DNA of 64,000 nucleotides. Origin: Mangrovicoccus sp. HB161399 (GTDB lineage: Bacteria; Pseudomonadota; Alphaproteobacteria; Rhodobacterales; Rhodobacteraceae). Shown here piece by piece: positions 38,353-45,535 of this stretch (position 1 is the first letter of the stretch; every line of letters begins with the position of its first letter). The stretch spans positions 1-64,000 of the forward strand of contig NZ_JAATVU010000001.1 in NCBI RefSeq assembly GCF_013184745.1, written 5' to 3'. A program made the translations under genes and the position numbers. The notes below the pieces were generated by a model. That model had not been told where the DNA came from. It saw only the letters and a program-made list of their open reading frames with translations, and made no database searches.

Positions 38353-38814
38353 ATGAGACTGACGCTACGCACGAATCTGGCCATGCGGACGCTTATGTTC
38401 TGCGCCGTCAACGACGATCGCACGGTCCGCAAGGCCGAAGTGGCCCGCGCCTGCAACGCTTCGGAAAACCATCTGGCGCATGTCATCGTGGTCCTGTCGC
38501 AGCTGGGCGTGATCCAGACCACCCGCGGCCGCAACGGCGGGCTCCGCCTCGCCCGCCCGGCAGAGGAAATCGACATCGGCGAAGTGATTCGCGCCCTGGA
38601 AAGCACCGTGCCCTTCGCCGAGTGCTTCGAGGGCGCCGAGAACCACTGCCCGATCGTCGACCACTGCCGCCTGCGCGGCGTGCTCGCCAATGCGGTGGAG
38701 GCCTTCTACGGCGCGCTGGACGGCATCATGCTGTCGGAACTGACCCAGGCCAATCCGGGGCTGATCCACGTGCTGGGCATCCATGCCGAGCAGGCCCTGC
38801 CCCGGGTCTGCTGA
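38353..38814 (+). CDS. nsrR: Rrf2-family Fe-S regulator, NsrR-like
   Basis: The 153-residue regulator has an N-terminal winged helix and three cysteines in AECFEGAENHCPIVDHC near residues 91-107, the NsrR arrangement that ligates a nitric-oxide-sensitive Fe-S cluster. An FNR box lies upstream, which suggests oxygen-dependent expression and a role in nitrosative or low-oxygen response. No nitric oxide or denitrification genes are in the window. The start is MRLTLRTN with GGGAGCAAGG upstream. Confidence 0.85.
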   Translation: MRLTLRTNLAMRTLMFCAVNDDRTVRKAEVARACNASENHLAHVIVVLSQLGVIQTTRGRNGGLRLARPAEEIDIGEVIRALESTVPFAECFEGAENHCPIVDHCRLRGVLANAVEAFYGALDGIMLSELTQANPGLIHVLGIHAEQALPRVC

Positions 38815-38817
38815 CCC

Positions 38818-39723
38818 TCACGCCCCGGCTGGCTCCGAGGGCAGCTCGACCACGTCGACGCTGTGCCCGGTGCCGCCGACCCCCGACATGCGCGTGACGC
38901 CCTTGACCGGCGACACGTCGGAATAGTCGCGCCCGTAGGCGACGACGATATGGTCCTCGCTGGCCATCATCGCATTGGTGGGATCGTACTCGATCCAGCC
39001 GATCTCGCGCCCGCACCAGGCGCGAACCCAGGCATGCATCGCATCCGCGCCCTCCAGCCGCTGCTGGCCCTCCGGCGGGATGGTGCGCAGGAATCCCGAG
39101 ACATAGCCCGCGGGCACGCCCACCGCGCGCAGCCCGGCGATCATGATGTGGGAATAGTCCTGGCAGACCCCCTTGCGCCGCCGGAACGCCTCGGCCGGGG
39201 GCGTGTCGGCATCGGTGGCGCCGGGCAGGAAGTCCATTTCGTCGTGGATCGCCAGCCCCATGCGGGTGACAGCCTCCATGGCCGTCATGTCCGCCGGGAC
39301 GAGATCGCGCGCGAATGCGGTGATCTCGGAGATCGAGCCGACCCGCGGCGAGGGCGCCACGAAATGGTGCGGCGAGCTGCCGTCGAGATCGCGGATCGCC
39401 GCCAGCTCGACCGGAAGCCGTGCCAGCGTCGGGCTGATGTCCAGCCCCGGCCGCTGGCTGCGCCGTTCCACCCAGGCCTTCAGCCGGAACTCGATGCCGG
39501 TCGAGGGACGGCCGCCGAATCCCACGGAAACGACGCGGTTGCCGAAGAAATCGGTGCCCTCGGTGCGCTCCGTCGGGCGCGGCGAGATGTCGAGATGGCG
39601 GATCGAGACCCGCTGGCGCCGCGGCAGCTCCAGCGGCTGCATGCGGATCACGTGATGGCCGAGGCTGGTGGACTGGCCATAGGTATAGAAGATCTTCAGG
39701 CGGATGTCGTAGCGCGTCGGCAT
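38818..39723 (-). CDS. Transglutaminase-like protein with N-terminal Bact_transglu_N domain
   Basis: The 301-residue soluble protein has the triad of transglutaminase-like enzymes: Cys in RRKGVCQDYSHIM (about residue 187), His in DAMHAWVRAW and Asp in GWIEYDPTN. It is the last gene of a three-gene operon after the ATP-grasp/alpha-E fusion, 13 bp away. No signal peptide is seen. Members of this family are predicted cysteine peptidases or ligases acting on peptides. Confidence 0.9.
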   Translation of the reverse strand: MPTRYDIRLKIFYTYGQSTSLGHHVIRMQPLELPRRQRVSIRHLDISPRPTERTEGTDFFGNRVVSVGFGGRPSTGIEFRLKAWVERRSQRPGLDISPTLARLPVELAAIRDLDGSSPHHFVAPSPRVGSISEITAFARDLVPADMTAMEAVTRMGLAIHDEMDFLPGATDADTPPAEAFRRRKGVCQDYSHIMIAGLRAVGVPAGYVSGFLRTIPPEGQQRLEGADAMHAWVRAWCGREIGWIEYDPTNAMMASEDHIVVAYGRDYSDVSPVKGVTRMSGVGGTGHSVDVVELPSEPAGA

Positions 39724-39736
39724 CGCGGTCCTCCCC

Positions 39737-42160
39737 TTACCTGAAATAGTGCTGGGTCAGGAGGTTCGACACCTCCATCAGCTCGCCGCGGGTCTTCCAC
39801 AGCGCCTGGGTGTCCAGCGTGTGCGGGCGCTGCAGCTCGATATCGGTCTGCACCCGAATCACCGCGCGGTAGAAATCGGCCAGCCGCCCGTGCACGTCGG
39901 CGCCGGGCAGCCTTTCGCACAGCGTGCGCATGCGGTTGAGCTGGTAGAGCAGCGCGCGCGGGTTGCGCCCGTCGAGCGCCAGCAGGTCGATCACCGTCTG
40001 CCGGTTGGTCGCGATCGTATAGCGCCGCCGGTGGGTGATGCCGCTGTCGCCCAGCTCCACCGCCAGGTCGAGCCCGCCCTCGGGCGCGGAATGGTCGGCG
40101 AAGCGCGCCAGCATCGCGCAGATGTCCATGGCGCGTTCCAGCGCGCGGCCGATCGACAGGAAGCGCCAGCCGGTGAAGCGGTACATGTTGTCCTGCACCA
40201 GCCCCGAGAAGCCGGTGATCTGGCGCAGCAGGCCGGAAATCTCGCGCGCGATGTCGTCGCCCGAGCGGGGCTCCTCGTCGCTGCGGTGGTTCTCGGCCAG
40301 CAGCATCGCCGCGGCCTGCAGGTCCTTCAGCGCCAGCCAGCCGTCTACGGAGAAGCGGTCGCGCACCTGCGCCGCACTCTGCACCGCGGCATCGAGCATG
40401 TCGGTCAGCGCCAGCGGCACCGGCTGGGACACGTCGACCCCGCCGATGGTCAGCGCCTTGCCGATCTCATGCTGCAGCGGCATGTCGGCCGCGGCGTTCT
40501 CCGCCAGCCGGACATGGTAGGCACGCAGCATCCGCATCGTGCCCTCGGCGCGCTCGACATAGCGGCCGAGCCAGTAGAGGTTGTCGGCGGCGCGGCTGGG
40601 CAGCAGGCTCAGATCCGGCCGGGTGCCGAGCGCCGAGCGCGCCTCGGCGATCGCCGTCTGCGAGCCGGGCGGATCCGACAGCAGCCAGACATCGGCAACC
40701 GAACCGCCCTTCTGCAGCGAGATCGCAGTGGACTCCTGGTTGCGGCCGATGCGGGCATAGCCGCCGGGCATCAGCGCCCAGCCCTTGCTGGTCCGCGCCG
40801 CGAAGATGCGCAGCGACATCGGCCGCGGCACCAGCTTCTCGCCGTCCCAGGCCGGGGTGGTCGACAGCCTCACGGCCTCCTGGCCGACGAGGTTGCCGGC
40901 CTCGTTCTCGATCCAGTCGGAGATCGATTCCTTGGCGGAGCCGCGGAACTTGCCGCCCAGCACGGTCTTGCCGTCGGTGTCGAACGGCAGCCGCGTCGCC
41001 AGCGCCGGCGCGATCATCATCCGGTCGGTATTCGACTGCACGTGCGACCGCTCCGCCCCCTGCCCGCACCACCAGGTGGCGATGTTCGGCATCTTCAGCG
41101 GCTCGCCGGTCAGCGCCTGGCAGATGCGCGGGATGAAGGCCAGCATCGCGCGCGTCTCCAGCACGCCCGAGCCGAGCGCGTTGACCATGGTCAGCGAGCC
41201 CTGCCGGATGGCGCCTGCCAAACCGGGCGTGCCGAGGCGCGAGGCCTCGTTCAGTTCCAGCGGATCGGCCCAAGCGCTGTCGATGCGCCGCCAGATCACG
41301 CTGATCGGCTGCAGCCCGTTGACGGTGCGGACCATGACGCGGCCGTCGCGGACCACCAGATCCTCGCCCTCGAGAAGCATGAAGCCGAGGTAGCGGGCGA
41401 TATAGGCATGCTCGAAATAGCCCTGGTTCAGCATGCCCGGCGTCAGCACGCCGACCCCGCCCTCGGTCTCGTCCGAGAGGCTTTCCAGCGCAGCGCGGAA
41501 ATCCGCGAAGAAGCCGCCGATCTTGGCCACGGTCTTGTCGGCGAAGTATTCCGGGAACATCCGGCTCATCGCGACGCGGTTCTCCACCGAGAATCCCGCC
41601 CCGGTCGGGGCCTGCGTGCGGTCGCCCAGCACCCACCAGCGCCCGTCCGGACCGCGGCCGATCTCGAAGGCGATGAAATGCAGGAAATGGCCCGAGCGCG
41701 GCTCCACCCCGACCATCGGGCGCAGCCATTCGGGCATCGAGGCCACCAGCGCGGCCGGCAGGTGCCCGTCCGCGACCAGATGGTTCGGTCCGTAGAGATC
41801 GGCGAGGATCGACTCCAGCAGGTCGGCGCGCTGCACCAGCGCCTCGGAAATGGAGGTCCAGTCCTCCTCGGAGAGCAGGACCGGGATATGGCTCAGCGGC
41901 CAGGCGCGCTCGCGCGAGAACCCGTGGTCGTATTCGCGGTAGTACACCCCGGCATCGTGCAGGTACTGCTCCGCCCGGTGGAAGCGGCGCTCGATGTCCA
42001 TGCTGGAAAGCCGCCCGAACTGGCCGATGAAATCGCGCCAGGCCGGACGCATCTGTCCGGCCGGGTCAAGCAGTTCGTCAGCAGTGTTCGCGGTCGGCCG
42101 GTAGTCGCGGATGAACGCCGCGAGCCCGCCGCGACGCTCGGATTTTTCATGCGTGCTCAA
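39737..42160 (-). CDS. Fusion of circularly permuted ATP-grasp (type 2) and alpha-E domains
   Basis: This is an 807-residue protein. Residues about 70-480 are a circularly permuted ATP-grasp ligase (DUF404/DUF407), with RRIDSAWADPLELN, LGSGVLETRAMLAFIPRICQ and TWWCGQ segments. Residues about 495-800 are the helical alpha-E domain (DUF403), starting PSRAADNLYWLGRYVERAE. In many bacteria these are separate adjacent genes; here they are fused. The ligase is expected to form a peptide-like bond at the cost of ATP. Substrates are unknown. Confidence 0.9.
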   Translation of the reverse strand: MSTHEKSERRGGLAAFIRDYRPTANTADELLDPAGQMRPAWRDFIGQFGRLSSMDIERRFHRAEQYLHDAGVYYREYDHGFSRERAWPLSHIPVLLSEEDWTSISEALVQRADLLESILADLYGPNHLVADGHLPAALVASMPEWLRPMVGVEPRSGHFLHFIAFEIGRGPDGRWWVLGDRTQAPTGAGFSVENRVAMSRMFPEYFADKTVAKIGGFFADFRAALESLSDETEGGVGVLTPGMLNQGYFEHAYIARYLGFMLLEGEDLVVRDGRVMVRTVNGLQPISVIWRRIDSAWADPLELNEASRLGTPGLAGAIRQGSLTMVNALGSGVLETRAMLAFIPRICQALTGEPLKMPNIATWWCGQGAERSHVQSNTDRMMIAPALATRLPFDTDGKTVLGGKFRGSAKESISDWIENEAGNLVGQEAVRLSTTPAWDGEKLVPRPMSLRIFAARTSKGWALMPGGYARIGRNQESTAISLQKGGSVADVWLLSDPPGSQTAIAEARSALGTRPDLSLLPSRAADNLYWLGRYVERAEGTMRMLRAYHVRLAENAAADMPLQHEIGKALTIGGVDVSQPVPLALTDMLDAAVQSAAQVRDRFSVDGWLALKDLQAAAMLLAENHRSDEEPRSGDDIAREISGLLRQITGFSGLVQDNMYRFTGWRFLSIGRALERAMDICAMLARFADHSAPEGGLDLAVELGDSGITHRRRYTIATNRQTVIDLLALDGRNPRALLYQLNRMRTLCERLPGADVHGRLADFYRAVIRVQTDIELQRPHTLDTQALWKTRGELMEVSNLLTQHYFR

Positions 42161-42163
42161 TCA

Positions 42164-45100
42164 TCACATCCCGGCAAGGCGCCGAAGGTCGAGCGTCATC
42201 GGGAATTCCGGATGCGGCGTCTCGATCGGCGGCACGTAAAGGCCCGGCGTATGCCCATGCGGCTGGAAGCGTGCCAGCCTGCGCGCCTCCGCCTCGTTCG
42301 AGTTGACCGGGAATGTGTCGTAGTTCCGTCCGCCCGGATGCGCAACATGGTAGACGCAGCCCGCGATCGCGCGGTTCGACCAGGTGTCGAACACGTCGAT
42401 GGTCAGCGGCACGTGCAGCGGCACGACCGGATGCATGGCCAGCGGCGCCTGCCAGGCCTTGTAGCGGATCCCGCCCACGGACACGCCGTTCTCCGCCGTC
42501 TTCTGCATCGGCACGATGCGGCCGTTGCAGGCCACGGTATAGCGCGACGGGTCCGAGGTTGTCAGCTTGACCTGGGCACGCTCGGTGGAGCTGTCGGTGT
42601 AGCGCACCGTGCCGCCGATCGCCCCGGTCTCGCCCATCACGTGCCATGGTTCGAGCGCCTGGCGCAGTTCCAGGTGGATGCCGGGCCCCTCGACCTCCCC
42701 GCAGAACGGGAAGCGGAACTCGGCCTGCGCCTTGTACCAGTCGGCCTGCATCGGATAGCCATGCTCGTTCAGATCCGCCAGAACTTCGTTGAAGTCCTCC
42801 CAGAGGTAATGCGGAAGCATGAACCGGTCGTGAAGCGTCGTGCCCCAGCGCGTCAGCTTGCCGGAAAGCGGGCTTTCCCAGAACCGCGCGATCAGCGCCC
42901 GGATCAGGAGCTGCTGCGCCAGCGACATGCGCGCATTGGGGGGCATCTCGAAGCCGCGGAACTCGACCAGGCCGAGCCGGCCGGTCGGGCCGTCGGGCGA
43001 GTAGAGCTTGTCGATGCAGATCTCGGCCCGGTGGGTGTTGCCGGTGACGTCGACCAGAAGGTTCCTGAGCAGCCGGTCGGTCAGCCACGGCAGGGGCGGC
43101 ATGCCCTCCCAAGGCGCCGGGATCTGCTGAAGCGCGATTTCCAGCTCGTAGAGGTGATCCGCGCGGCCCTCGTCGACGCGCGGCGCCTGAGAGGTCGGGC
43201 CGATGAACAGGCCCGAGAACATGTAGCTCAGCGACGGATGCCGCTGCCAGTGCAGGATCAGCGAGCGCAGCAGGTCCGGACGGCGCAGGAAGGGGCTGTC
43301 CATGATGGTCGCGCCGCCGATGACGACATGGTTGCCGCCGCCGGTGCCGGTATGCTTGCCGTCGATCATGAACTTGTCGGCGCCGAGGCGGCTCTGGCGG
43401 GCCTCCTCGTAGATCGTCTCGGTGATCTCGCGCGCCTCGTCCCAGTTCGACGCGGGCTGGATGTTGACCTCCAGCACGCCCGGATCGGGAGTGACCTTGA
43501 TGACGTTCAGGCGCGGGTCGGAGGGCGGCGGATAGCCCTCGATATGCACCGGCATGCCCAGCCGCTTGGCCGCGGCCTCGGAGGCGGCGACCAGCTCCAG
43601 ATAGTCCTCCAGCCAGACGACCGGCGGCAGGAAGACCGTCAGGCGGCCGTCGCGCGGCTCCACCGAGATGGCGGTGCGGACATGGCCGTCGATCTCGTAG
43701 AGGCTCTGCGGGACCGGGCCGTCCTTCTCTGCGGTCTCGTAGGTGACGGTGGCGACCTTCTGGTCGAGCCATTCCTTACCCAGCCGCTCGGCCATCTCCT
43801 TGGAGATGTCGGGCAGCGGCGGCCGTTCCAGCGTGGTGTCCGCCTCGTTGATGTAGGGATACTCGGCCGGGGACAGGTAGGGCAGCGCGCCCAGCGGCAG
43901 GCGGTAGCCCACCGGGCTGTCGCCGGGGACCAGGAACAGCTTGCCGCGGCGGGTCTTCCATTTCTCCGACATCCACTTGCGGCTGGTGGTGTGCTTCACC
44001 TGCCAGGGCTGCACGGGAAGGACGTAGCCCACCGGCTTGGTCAGGCCGCGCTCGAACACCGTCAGCATCCGCTGGCGTTCCTCGGCATCCTCGAGATGCG
44101 AGTTCTCGGGGTCGACATTGTCCGGCAGGCGGCCTTCACGGATCAGCCATTCGGCCGGGTCCTCGTAGGCGGGCATGATGTTGCCGGTCTCGACCGCCAG
44201 CGCCTCGGCGATCGCCGTGGTTAGCTGCGCCGCATCCTCGTAGGTCGGCTCGTCCTCCTTCTCGATCTCGGCGACCGGCAGCTCGCGCGCGATCAGGTCG
44301 GGATCGTTCCAGATCGGCTTGCCGTCGCGGCGCCAGTAGCAGGAGAAGGTCCAGCGCGGCAGGGTCTCGCCCGGATACCACTTGCCCTGCCCGTAATGCA
44401 GGAAGCCGCCGGGCGCGAATTTCTCGCGCAGCCGCCGGATCAGGACATCGGCCAGCGCCCGCTTCTGCGGGCCGACGGCGGCGGAGTTCCATTCGTCGGA
44501 TTCGAAATCGTCGATCGACACGAAGGTCGGCTCGCCGCCCATGGTCAGGCGGACGTCGTTCTCGGCCAGCTTCTTGTCGACATGCGCGCCGAGCGCGTTC
44601 AGCGCGTCCCAGCTGTCATCGGAAAACGGCTTGGTGATGCGCGGGTGCTCGGCGACCCGGGTCACCTGCATGTCGAAGTCGAACTCGGTCTCCAGGTCGT
44701 CCGGCGCCGAGAACCCGCCCGAGATCGGCGCGGCGTTCTTGTAGTGCGGCGTGGCGGCCAGAGGGATGTGGCTCTCGCCGGTCAGGAGGCCGGAGGTCGG
44801 ATCGAATCCGATCCATCCCGCACCCGGCAGGAAGACCTCGCACCAGGCATGCAGGTCGGTGAAGTCGACCTCGGTGCCGGAGGGGCCGTCCAGCGCCTTC
44901 AGGTCGGGCTTCAGCTGGATCAGGTAGCCCGAGACGAAGCGCGCCGCGAGGCCGAGGTTGCGCAGGGCCTGCACCATCAGCCAGGAGCTGTCGCGGCACG
45001 ATCCCTTGCCGTTCTCGAAGGTCTCTTCCGGGGTGTAGACGCCCGGCTCCAGCCGGACGACATATTCGACGGCCTCGTTGATGCGGCGGTTCAGGTCGAC

Positions 45101-45535
45101 GACGAAATCGACCGAGCGCATCTTCTCCGTCGGCACGCCCTCGAGGAATTTCTTCAGGTGAGGCCCGGCCGGCTCGGGCTTCATGTAGATCGACAGATCC
45201 TCGAGCAGCTCCTCGGGATATTCGAACGGATAGAACTCGGCGCGCTCCTCGACGAAGAAGTCGAAGGGGTTGTAGACCGACATGTCGGCGACAAGGTCGA
45301 CCTCGATCTTCAGCTCGCGCACCGGTTCGGGAAACACGAACCGTGCCAGCCAGTTGCCGTAGGGGTCCTGCTGGTGGTTGACGAAATGGGTGGACGGACT
45401 GACCTTGAGCGAATGGGTCAGAACGCGCGTCCTCGAATGCGGGGCCGGCCGCAGGCGGATGACCTGGGGGCCCAGAACCACCGGCTGGTCGTACTTGTAA
45501 TGGGTCAGGTGATAGATGCTGGCCTTGATCGACAT
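42164..45535 (-). CDS. Transglutaminase-DUF2126 large protein
   Basis: This is a 1123-residue protein. Residues 1-90 are a Bact_transglu_N domain. A transglutaminase core spans about 150-280, with Cys in [11 protein letters not shown], His in [10 protein letters not shown] and Asp in [10 protein letters not shown] long DUF2126 region runs from about 300 to the end, with [30 protein letters not shown] and [10 protein letters not shown]. This region has been proposed (from memory) to be a carboxylate-amine ligase of the glutamine-synthetase fold. It ends 3 bp before the ATP-grasp fusion gene and is the first gene of the operon, suggesting coupled expression. Confidence 0.9.

Follow-up and report, generated by a model that had tools for sequence, protein, structure and literature searches.

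A transglutaminase-DUF2126 operon of Mangrovicoccus with a degenerate ATP-grasp site, and the intact ATP-grasp set that accompanies it

The operon and its predicted domains

We analyzed the first 64,000 nucleotides of contig NZ_JAATVU010000001.1 of Mangrovicoccus sp. HB161399 (the window), in which three adjacent genes on one strand, separated by 3 bp and then by 13 bp, encode a transglutaminase-like (TG) protein fused to DUF2126 (TG1-DUF2126), a fused ATP-grasp/alpha-E protein (AG-AE) and a stand-alone TG protein (TG2; Table 1). Pfam assigns Bact_transglu_N, Transglut_core and DUF2126 (1322 bits) to the first gene, CP_ATPgrasp_2 (434 bits) and Alpha-E (175 bits) to the second, and Bact_transglu_N and Transglut_core to the third. 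Adjacent genes of the operon combine TG, circularly permuted ATP-grasp and alpha-E with a predicted carboxylate-amine ligase domain. A first-pass annotation of this DNA had described the same three genes and gaps, a permuted ATP-grasp fused to alpha-E, and two TG proteins with intact Cys-His-Asp triads; coordinates and strand were confirmed exactly, and the domains and both triads are present. None of the three proteins received a name from NCBIfam, and Rfam had no match at the operon at gathering thresholds. A defence role is without support, since PADLOC gave no match among six proteins tested.

Table 1. Genes, domains and motifs of the operon
Feature	Position	Strand	Basis or description
TG1-DUF2126 gene	42164..45535	minus	1123 aa, ATG start
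TG1, N-terminal transglutaminase-like cysteine hydrolase (predicted)	C180, H229, D245	minus	Pfam, triad check
DUF2126, predicted glutamine-synthetase-fold amidoligase domain	residues ~280-1118 of TG1-DUF2126	minus	Pfam, predicted structure
Fused ATP-grasp/alpha-E gene	39737..42160	minus	807 aa, TTG start
Circularly permuted ATP-grasp, degenerate site	residues ~24-495 of the 807-aa protein	minus	Pfam, predicted structure, residue loss
Codons 178-187, LGDRTQAPTG, replacing LEDNCRTPSG of the intact homologue	41600..41629 (worked out by hand from the 42160 start)	minus	Profile alignment
Alpha-E domain	residues 520-806 of the 807-aa protein	minus	Pfam
TG2 gene	38818..39723	minus	301 aa, ATG start
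TG2, stand-alone transglutaminase-like cysteine hydrolase (predicted)	C187/H230/D247	minus	Pfam, triad check, PDB sequence relatives 3isr and 6g49

DUF2126 matched PF09899 in 63 of 200 Pseudomonadota genomes and in 19 of 61 nearer genomes, the window's own genome being counted in both samples. From a subset of these genomes we assembled 57 DUF2126 loci (the window, 17 nearer, 39 across the phylum). The order TG1-DUF2126, AG-AE, TG2 on one strand recurs in 43 of them, window included, so the arrangement is not due to chance. Exactly this order was also found in 68 of 107 further loci, which were mostly drawn by their ATP-grasp and describe order rather than frequency.

An AlphaFold model of TG1-DUF2126, built with 53 sequences, had a predicted local distance difference test score (pLDDT) of 79 and a predicted template modelling score (pTM) of 0.78. 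Foldseek hits to this model were dominated by the TG domain and matched the glutamine synthetase (GS) family weakly (GmaS, E 7e-3). VIA aligned 227-283 residues of the model with glutamine synthetases and GmaS (Z 11-13, root-mean-square deviation [rmsd] 3.7-4.7), for the most part in the region of residues 300-960. Of the 49 rows at ranks 2-50, 48 bore one of these names. DUF2126 is thus, by prediction, a GS-fold domain, which bears out the suggestion of the first-pass annotation that it might have a ligase fold, and is consistent with an earlier assignment, made from sequence, of the Rv2566 family to the carboxylate-amine ligases (PMC2588565). Residues invariant in the 53-sequence alignment include E335, E689, N691, H736, E858, R860 and E863, some of which may bind metal or ATP.

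The Cys-His-Asp triad occurs in 54 of 55 TG1 sequences (the remaining one is an alignment gap) and in 56 of 57 TG2 sequences (the remaining one is a fragment of a disrupted TG1 frame). In one relative (G015; L040:10374-13403) TG1-DUF2126 is broken over several frames, perhaps by a frameshift or an assembly error. We take Rv2569c to be a possible homologue of TG2. If it is, the report that it is a serine protease on which E-64 and N-ethylmaleimide have no effect (PMC11081392) is at odds with the Cys triad. A 1491-codon open frame (39749-44224) lies antisense to the operon and is putatively a mechanical by-product of coding on the opposite strand.

Loss of the ATP-grasp site in the fused protein

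Pfam, predicted structure and structure comparison all place an ATP-grasp fold in the fused protein. Its model (pLDDT 87.8, pTM 0.86) matches PDB 3n6x at Z 42.5 over 434 residues and the synthetase of Escherichia coli glutathionylspermidine synthetase/amidase (Gss) at Z ~21. The closest solved structure, 3n6x, comes from Methylobacillus flagellatus and is labelled a putative glutathionylspermidine synthase; its sequence, in contrast to the window's, is of an intact type encoded apart from alpha-E (the split type, with LEDN and KEV-GSGGYG motifs).

The predicted Mg ligands, ATP-phosphate lysines and glycine-rich loop are absent from the fused type in alignments. We compared 134 fused proteins (133 distinct) with 45 split proteins, one per locus, leaving out fused frames below 600 aa, split frames below 380 aa and fused proteins whose ATP-grasp part was short. 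E157, N159, K318, K365 and D425 are each kept in 45 of 45 split proteins, versus 3, 0, 3, 8 and 0, respectively, of the 134 fused proteins; by profile alignment, their equivalents in the window protein are G179, R181, R337, A384 and S449. Of the loop glycines taken one by one, 371 is present in 19 fused proteins, 372 in 7 and 374 in 29; all three together are present in 0, and no fused protein keeps more than two of the six key positions (D144, E157, N159, K318, K365, D425). A smaller first set (52 fused vs. 19 split) showed residue loss in the same direction. The fused type has instead a conserved motif of its own, DRTQAP(S/T)G, with Arg at position 159 in 121/134 and Gln at 161 in 115/134.

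In E. coli Gss and its relatives, D318, E330, N332, K498, K533 and R598 are invariant, and we presume for them the roles usually ascribed to these residues in Gss/GspS. In glutathione synthetases, lysines 305 and 364 are the ATP-phosphate ligands, and Mg is held by acidic residues (PMC2845819). We take the Asn of the split type (N159) to be a probable Mg ligand. The first-pass annotation had counted two predicted ligases in the operon and had named loss of ATP-binding residues as the result that would tell against its picture; sequence alignment finds that loss in the ATP-grasp domain, and a count of two ligases is not supported.

Fused and split ATP-grasps separate with support of 1.0 in an unrooted tree of 179 sequences. 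The degenerate site extends to fused ATP-grasps of Actinomycetota (L190) and Acidobacteriota (L191), phyla other than Pseudomonadota having been sampled through plasmids only; Lys at 365 is kept in the acidobacterial L191 and in Enterobacter L192. The actinomycete sequence lies on a Tsukamurella plasmid (L190:1482-4864), where fused ATP-grasp/alpha-E and TG genes have no DUF2126 gene adjoining.

We estimated the ratio of nonsynonymous to synonymous substitution rates (dN/dS) pairwise among four species of the genus (Nei-Gojobori, own script). In the window set, values were 0.10-0.23 for the fused ATP-grasp, 0.06-0.16 for its alpha-E, 0.12-0.24 for TG2, 0.07-0.11 for DUF2126 and 0.03-0.10 for TG1; in a second set described below, they were 0.02-0.06 for the split ATP-grasp, 0.11-0.18 for alpha-E, 0.08-0.11 for Anbu and 0.17-0.42 for TG. 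Thus, the fused ATP-grasp, DUF2126, TG1 and the split ATP-grasp are all under purifying selection. That the fused ATP-grasp is merely decaying, as its missing catalytic residues might suggest, is rejected by these ratios and is further opposed by the conservation of its own motif across the 134 fused sequences, one actinomycete and one acidobacterium among them. Open frames give no independent evidence on this point, since these sequences were chosen for frames above 600 aa. We regard decay as extremely improbable.

The alpha-E half of the fused model has no clear known fold: the best VIA match, a membrane complex subunit (Z 10.5, rmsd 6.5), falls in the range given for helical proteins, and no convincing sequence relative was found in the PDB, where one designed bundle matched at E 8. 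NasR, a transcription antiterminator with a nitrate-related role, weakly matches alpha-E (39737-40620; 4akk, Z 9.7, 217 residues, rmsd 6.3), at the level of unrelated helical proteins.

An intact ATP-grasp set in the same genomes, and a possible nitrogen link

Elsewhere in this genome, contig C113 carries in one run an ATP-grasp (471 aa), an alpha-E (317 aa), a TG (287 aa) and an Anbu protein (242 aa); Anbu had no match in the window itself. We defined the intact split type by a PF04174 score of at least 430 bits, where the scores leave a gap from 431 to 381 bits, and checked its residues in 45 proteins. By this definition it occurs in 111 of the 200 Pseudomonadota genomes and accompanies DUF2126 without exception, in 63 of 63 DUF2126 genomes of that sample and 19 of 19 nearer ones. 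The association in the larger sample has a hypergeometric probability of 9e-22 and a genus-level P of 3e-10, the latter calculated from the tallies listed; the tests ignore relatedness.

Anbu occurs in 69 of the 200 genomes, 67 of them with an intact-type ATP-grasp and one more with a partial match. DUF2126 genomes are divided: 35 of the 63 have an Anbu match and 28 have none at E 1e-8. These counts make the intact ATP-grasp look like a hub, with DUF2126 and Anbu as additions independent of each other. In 24 of the 57 loci, DUF2126 is adjoined by an intact-type ATP-grasp or alpha-E. The two sets also adjoin on an Enterobacter plasmid, in the run AG, AE, TG-DUF2126, AG-AE, TG2 (AG, ATP-grasp; AE, alpha-E), and in Burkholderia arboris, in a six-gene run, bAG, bAE, bTG, TG-DUF2126, AG-AE, TG2.

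The TG of the Anbu operon in the window's genome (L024:7132-7995; G000:C113:95131-95994) has lost its catalytic Cys while keeping His and Asp. The position holds Ala here and Ser, Pro and Pro in three further species of the genus (L202-L204), and Cys in the other 19 of 23 proteins examined. The Cys-less proteins still have dN/dS below 1 (0.17-0.42).

Published expression data connect related genes to nitrogen supply. In a nitrogen-limited ntrC mutant of Burkholderia cenocepacia H111, I35_5080-83 (DUF404/407, DUF403, TG-like and large TG-like) change by log2 -8.2, -9.4, -9.4 and -6.0, and the cluster is named among the common sigma54/NtrC targets (PMC5491218); the first four genes of the B. arboris run resemble this cluster. 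In Pseudomonas putida, on nitrate vs. ammonium, PP_2685 (Anbu) rises by log2 4.4 and PP_2688 (circularly permuted ATP-grasp) by 4.0 (PMC8050072), and in marine metagenomes DUF403/404/407 and Bact_transglu_N counts are linked with urea-use domains (PMC3597751). In our own loci, split-ATP-grasp starts have a sigma54 box with at most two mismatches in 8 of 19 cases, where 1.0 would be expected, and TG1 starts in 13 of 55, where 3.3 would be expected; the expectations come from simple base shuffles, and the start sites are approximate.

A scan of the window operon for sigma70-type promoters gave no match, and its one terminator-like match lies on the other strand, fewer than in shuffled sequence. 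An Rrf2-family regulator gene (38353-38814; RirA/NsrR-like, below naming cut-offs) on the opposite strand ends 3 bp from the operon. The gene also lies close to the operon in the other three species of the genus, and at E 1e-10 none of the remaining loci searched has a match. Flanking frames shared with these three species are Rrf2 and a 362-codon frame in all three, rpe and dtd in two and TonB in one, where rpe, dtd and TonB-receptor are labels that we presume from the sequences. Across the 57 loci, none of six flanking genes is shared outside the genus, apart from distant LysR matches in three loci.

Proposed role and alternatives

We propose that the operon encodes a nitrogen-stress amide synthetase-amidase system whose fused ATP-grasp/alpha-E protein is a non-catalytic partner and which works with the intact ATP-grasp set, a reading to which we assign a probability of about 0.5. 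TG1-DUF2126 would be the working enzyme: we predict that its GS-fold half uses ATP to couple a carboxylate with an amine and that its thiol-hydrolase half cleaves or transfers the bond so formed, following the logic of E. coli glutathionylspermidine synthetase/amidase. TG2 would act as a second hydrolase or transferase, and the fusion, its Mg and ATP ligands lost, may have been retained as a binding or docking partner. Any ATP-grasp-type ligation would then fall to the paralogous set elsewhere (intact ATP-grasp, alpha-E, TG, Anbu), as partner of the DUF2126 module. Of the earlier interpretation, the operon of predicted amide-ligase and papain-like thiol-hydrolase parts is supported and a tag-on/tag-off role is possible, whereas the pair of ligases is not supported.

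The operon shares its domains and gene neighborhood with the systems for which Iyer et al. (2009) predicted peptide synthesis or modification (as cited in PMC5666114 and PMC3597751) and with the Mycobacterium tuberculosis Rv2566 family, in which an N-terminal transglutaminase-like domain is fused to a carboxylate-amine ligase domain (PMC2588565). A distinct feature is that the ATP-grasp of the window and of the fused homologues examined lacks its catalytic residues. With the Anbu operon, whose ATP-grasp releases phosphate from ATP in Yersinia bercovieri (PMC6376114), it shares paralogous ATP-grasp, alpha-E and TG, but it lacks Anbu and has DUF2126, a fused AG-AE and a degenerate ATP-grasp. Gss also joins an amidase and an ATP-dependent amide ligase in one chain, as proposed for TG1-DUF2126, and its amidase is, we assume, of the cysteine type. 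However, the TG1-DUF2126 ligase would have the GS fold and its hydrolase is transglutaminase-like, the common synthetase fold being that of the window's ATP-grasp domain, so the likeness is an analogy of logic and not homology of the whole. The rlo operon of P. aeruginosa (TG RloB, ATP-grasp RloC, protease RloA) likewise pairs a transglutaminase fold with an ATP-grasp, but as described has a membrane-bound inactive TG and a RimK-like ATP-grasp, with no mention of alpha-E in the text searched (PMC12239564). The fungal ligase Cp1B has the general glutathione-synthetase fold alone in common with the window's ATP-grasp (PMC12568646).

Several observations weigh against our proposal, beside the relatedness ignored by the co-occurrence tests. 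The other 14 of the 57 loci are rearranged, divergent, without a fused gene in the stretch or at a contig edge, and in several of them DUF2126 is divergent from the fused gene. Five of the 63 DUF2126 genomes have only intact-type ATP-grasp matches (G095, G108, G123, G135 and G156, with DUF2126 at a contig end in G108 and G156), and a fused ATP-grasp without a DUF2126 match occurs in G048, G252 and, among the matches listed, probably G255, so the fused protein and DUF2126 can occur apart. The lost residues were mapped to GspS numbering by motif match and fold; a local alignment sets E157/N159 of the split type on E330/N332 of Gss, in a profile comparison that was not significant. Nor was the DUF2126-YbdK profile match, although H736 and E858-x-R860 coincide with YbdK motifs. 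For nitrogen, I35_5083 would be TG-DUF2126 from the gene order of B. arboris, and the main text of PMC5491218 makes no mention of I35_5084/5085. Sigma54 control of the window operon itself was rejected, since the best upstream match had 4 mismatches, as expected by chance.

Part of the fused site also remains: Asp or Glu at 144 and R427 are kept in 134/134 and D280 in 133/134, so a non-canonical activity is possible. These residues, the retained fold and the new motif, which suggests a site in use, would suit the original picture of two active ligases, ATP-grasp and DUF2126, the former with an altered metal and nucleotide site. That E157, N159, K318, K365, the Gly-rich loop and D425 are lost together, and that the fused type evolves faster than its intact paralogue by the ratios given above, makes this distinctly unlikely. 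In a pseudoligase version, which we entertain tentatively, the Arg of DRTQAP(S/T)G, through its fixed positive charge, would hold an anionic ligand (product, acyl-phosphate mimic or nucleotide) without metal, and the fused protein would sense or shuttle that ligand and gate the GS-fold ligase together with both amidases. The first ligation would be the work of the Anbu-type ATP-grasp.

Two further alternatives concern the product rather than the site. Protein tagging and clearance, in which proteins would receive a small tag from the ligases and lose it through the TGs, with Anbu degrading those that carry it, has been proposed in print (PMC6376114) and is in keeping with Anbu in the paralogous operon of this genome and with the near-constant company of Anbu and intact-type ATP-grasp. 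Yet DUF2126 genomes without an Anbu match are common, the published work found neither Anbu peptidase activity nor a stable operon complex (PMC6376114), and the 2008 paper that placed the ligase family reports that no Pup-like small conserved open reading frame lies beside it (PMC2588565); we consider tagging unlikely. Alternatively, the operon might make a small peptide or amide for secretion or storage, as a metabolite pathway and not for stress turnover. This would fit the closest characterized ATP-grasp folds, which belong to small-molecule amide ligases (glutathione synthetases, GspS, Cp1B), as well as the peptide synthesis predicted by Iyer et al. Against it, the flanking-gene comparison, which covered the six genes above rather than a search of all neighbors for transporters, tailoring genes or precursor peptides, yielded no shared companion outside the genus but the LysR matches, and we hold this reading to be unlikely as well.

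For the family as a whole the prediction is of long standing, and the operon is common. What is added here is that the ATP-grasp site has been lost and that the intact set is always present alongside in the two samples, neither of which we found in print, and phrases for an inactive, degenerate or pseudo ATP-grasp returned no paper (literature searched mostly without subscription journals, and Iyer et al., 2009 through citing papers). As the first-pass annotation had it, making or attaching peptides has been predicted and no product was found in that literature, for a system present in about a third of the sampled Pseudomonadota. Because the ATP-grasp is degenerate, annotating this operon type by its domains overstates the number of ligases by one, and because the intact paralogue is its constant companion, both sets should be knocked out or purified together. 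The link to nitrogen limitation suggests how cells might be grown in a search for the product.

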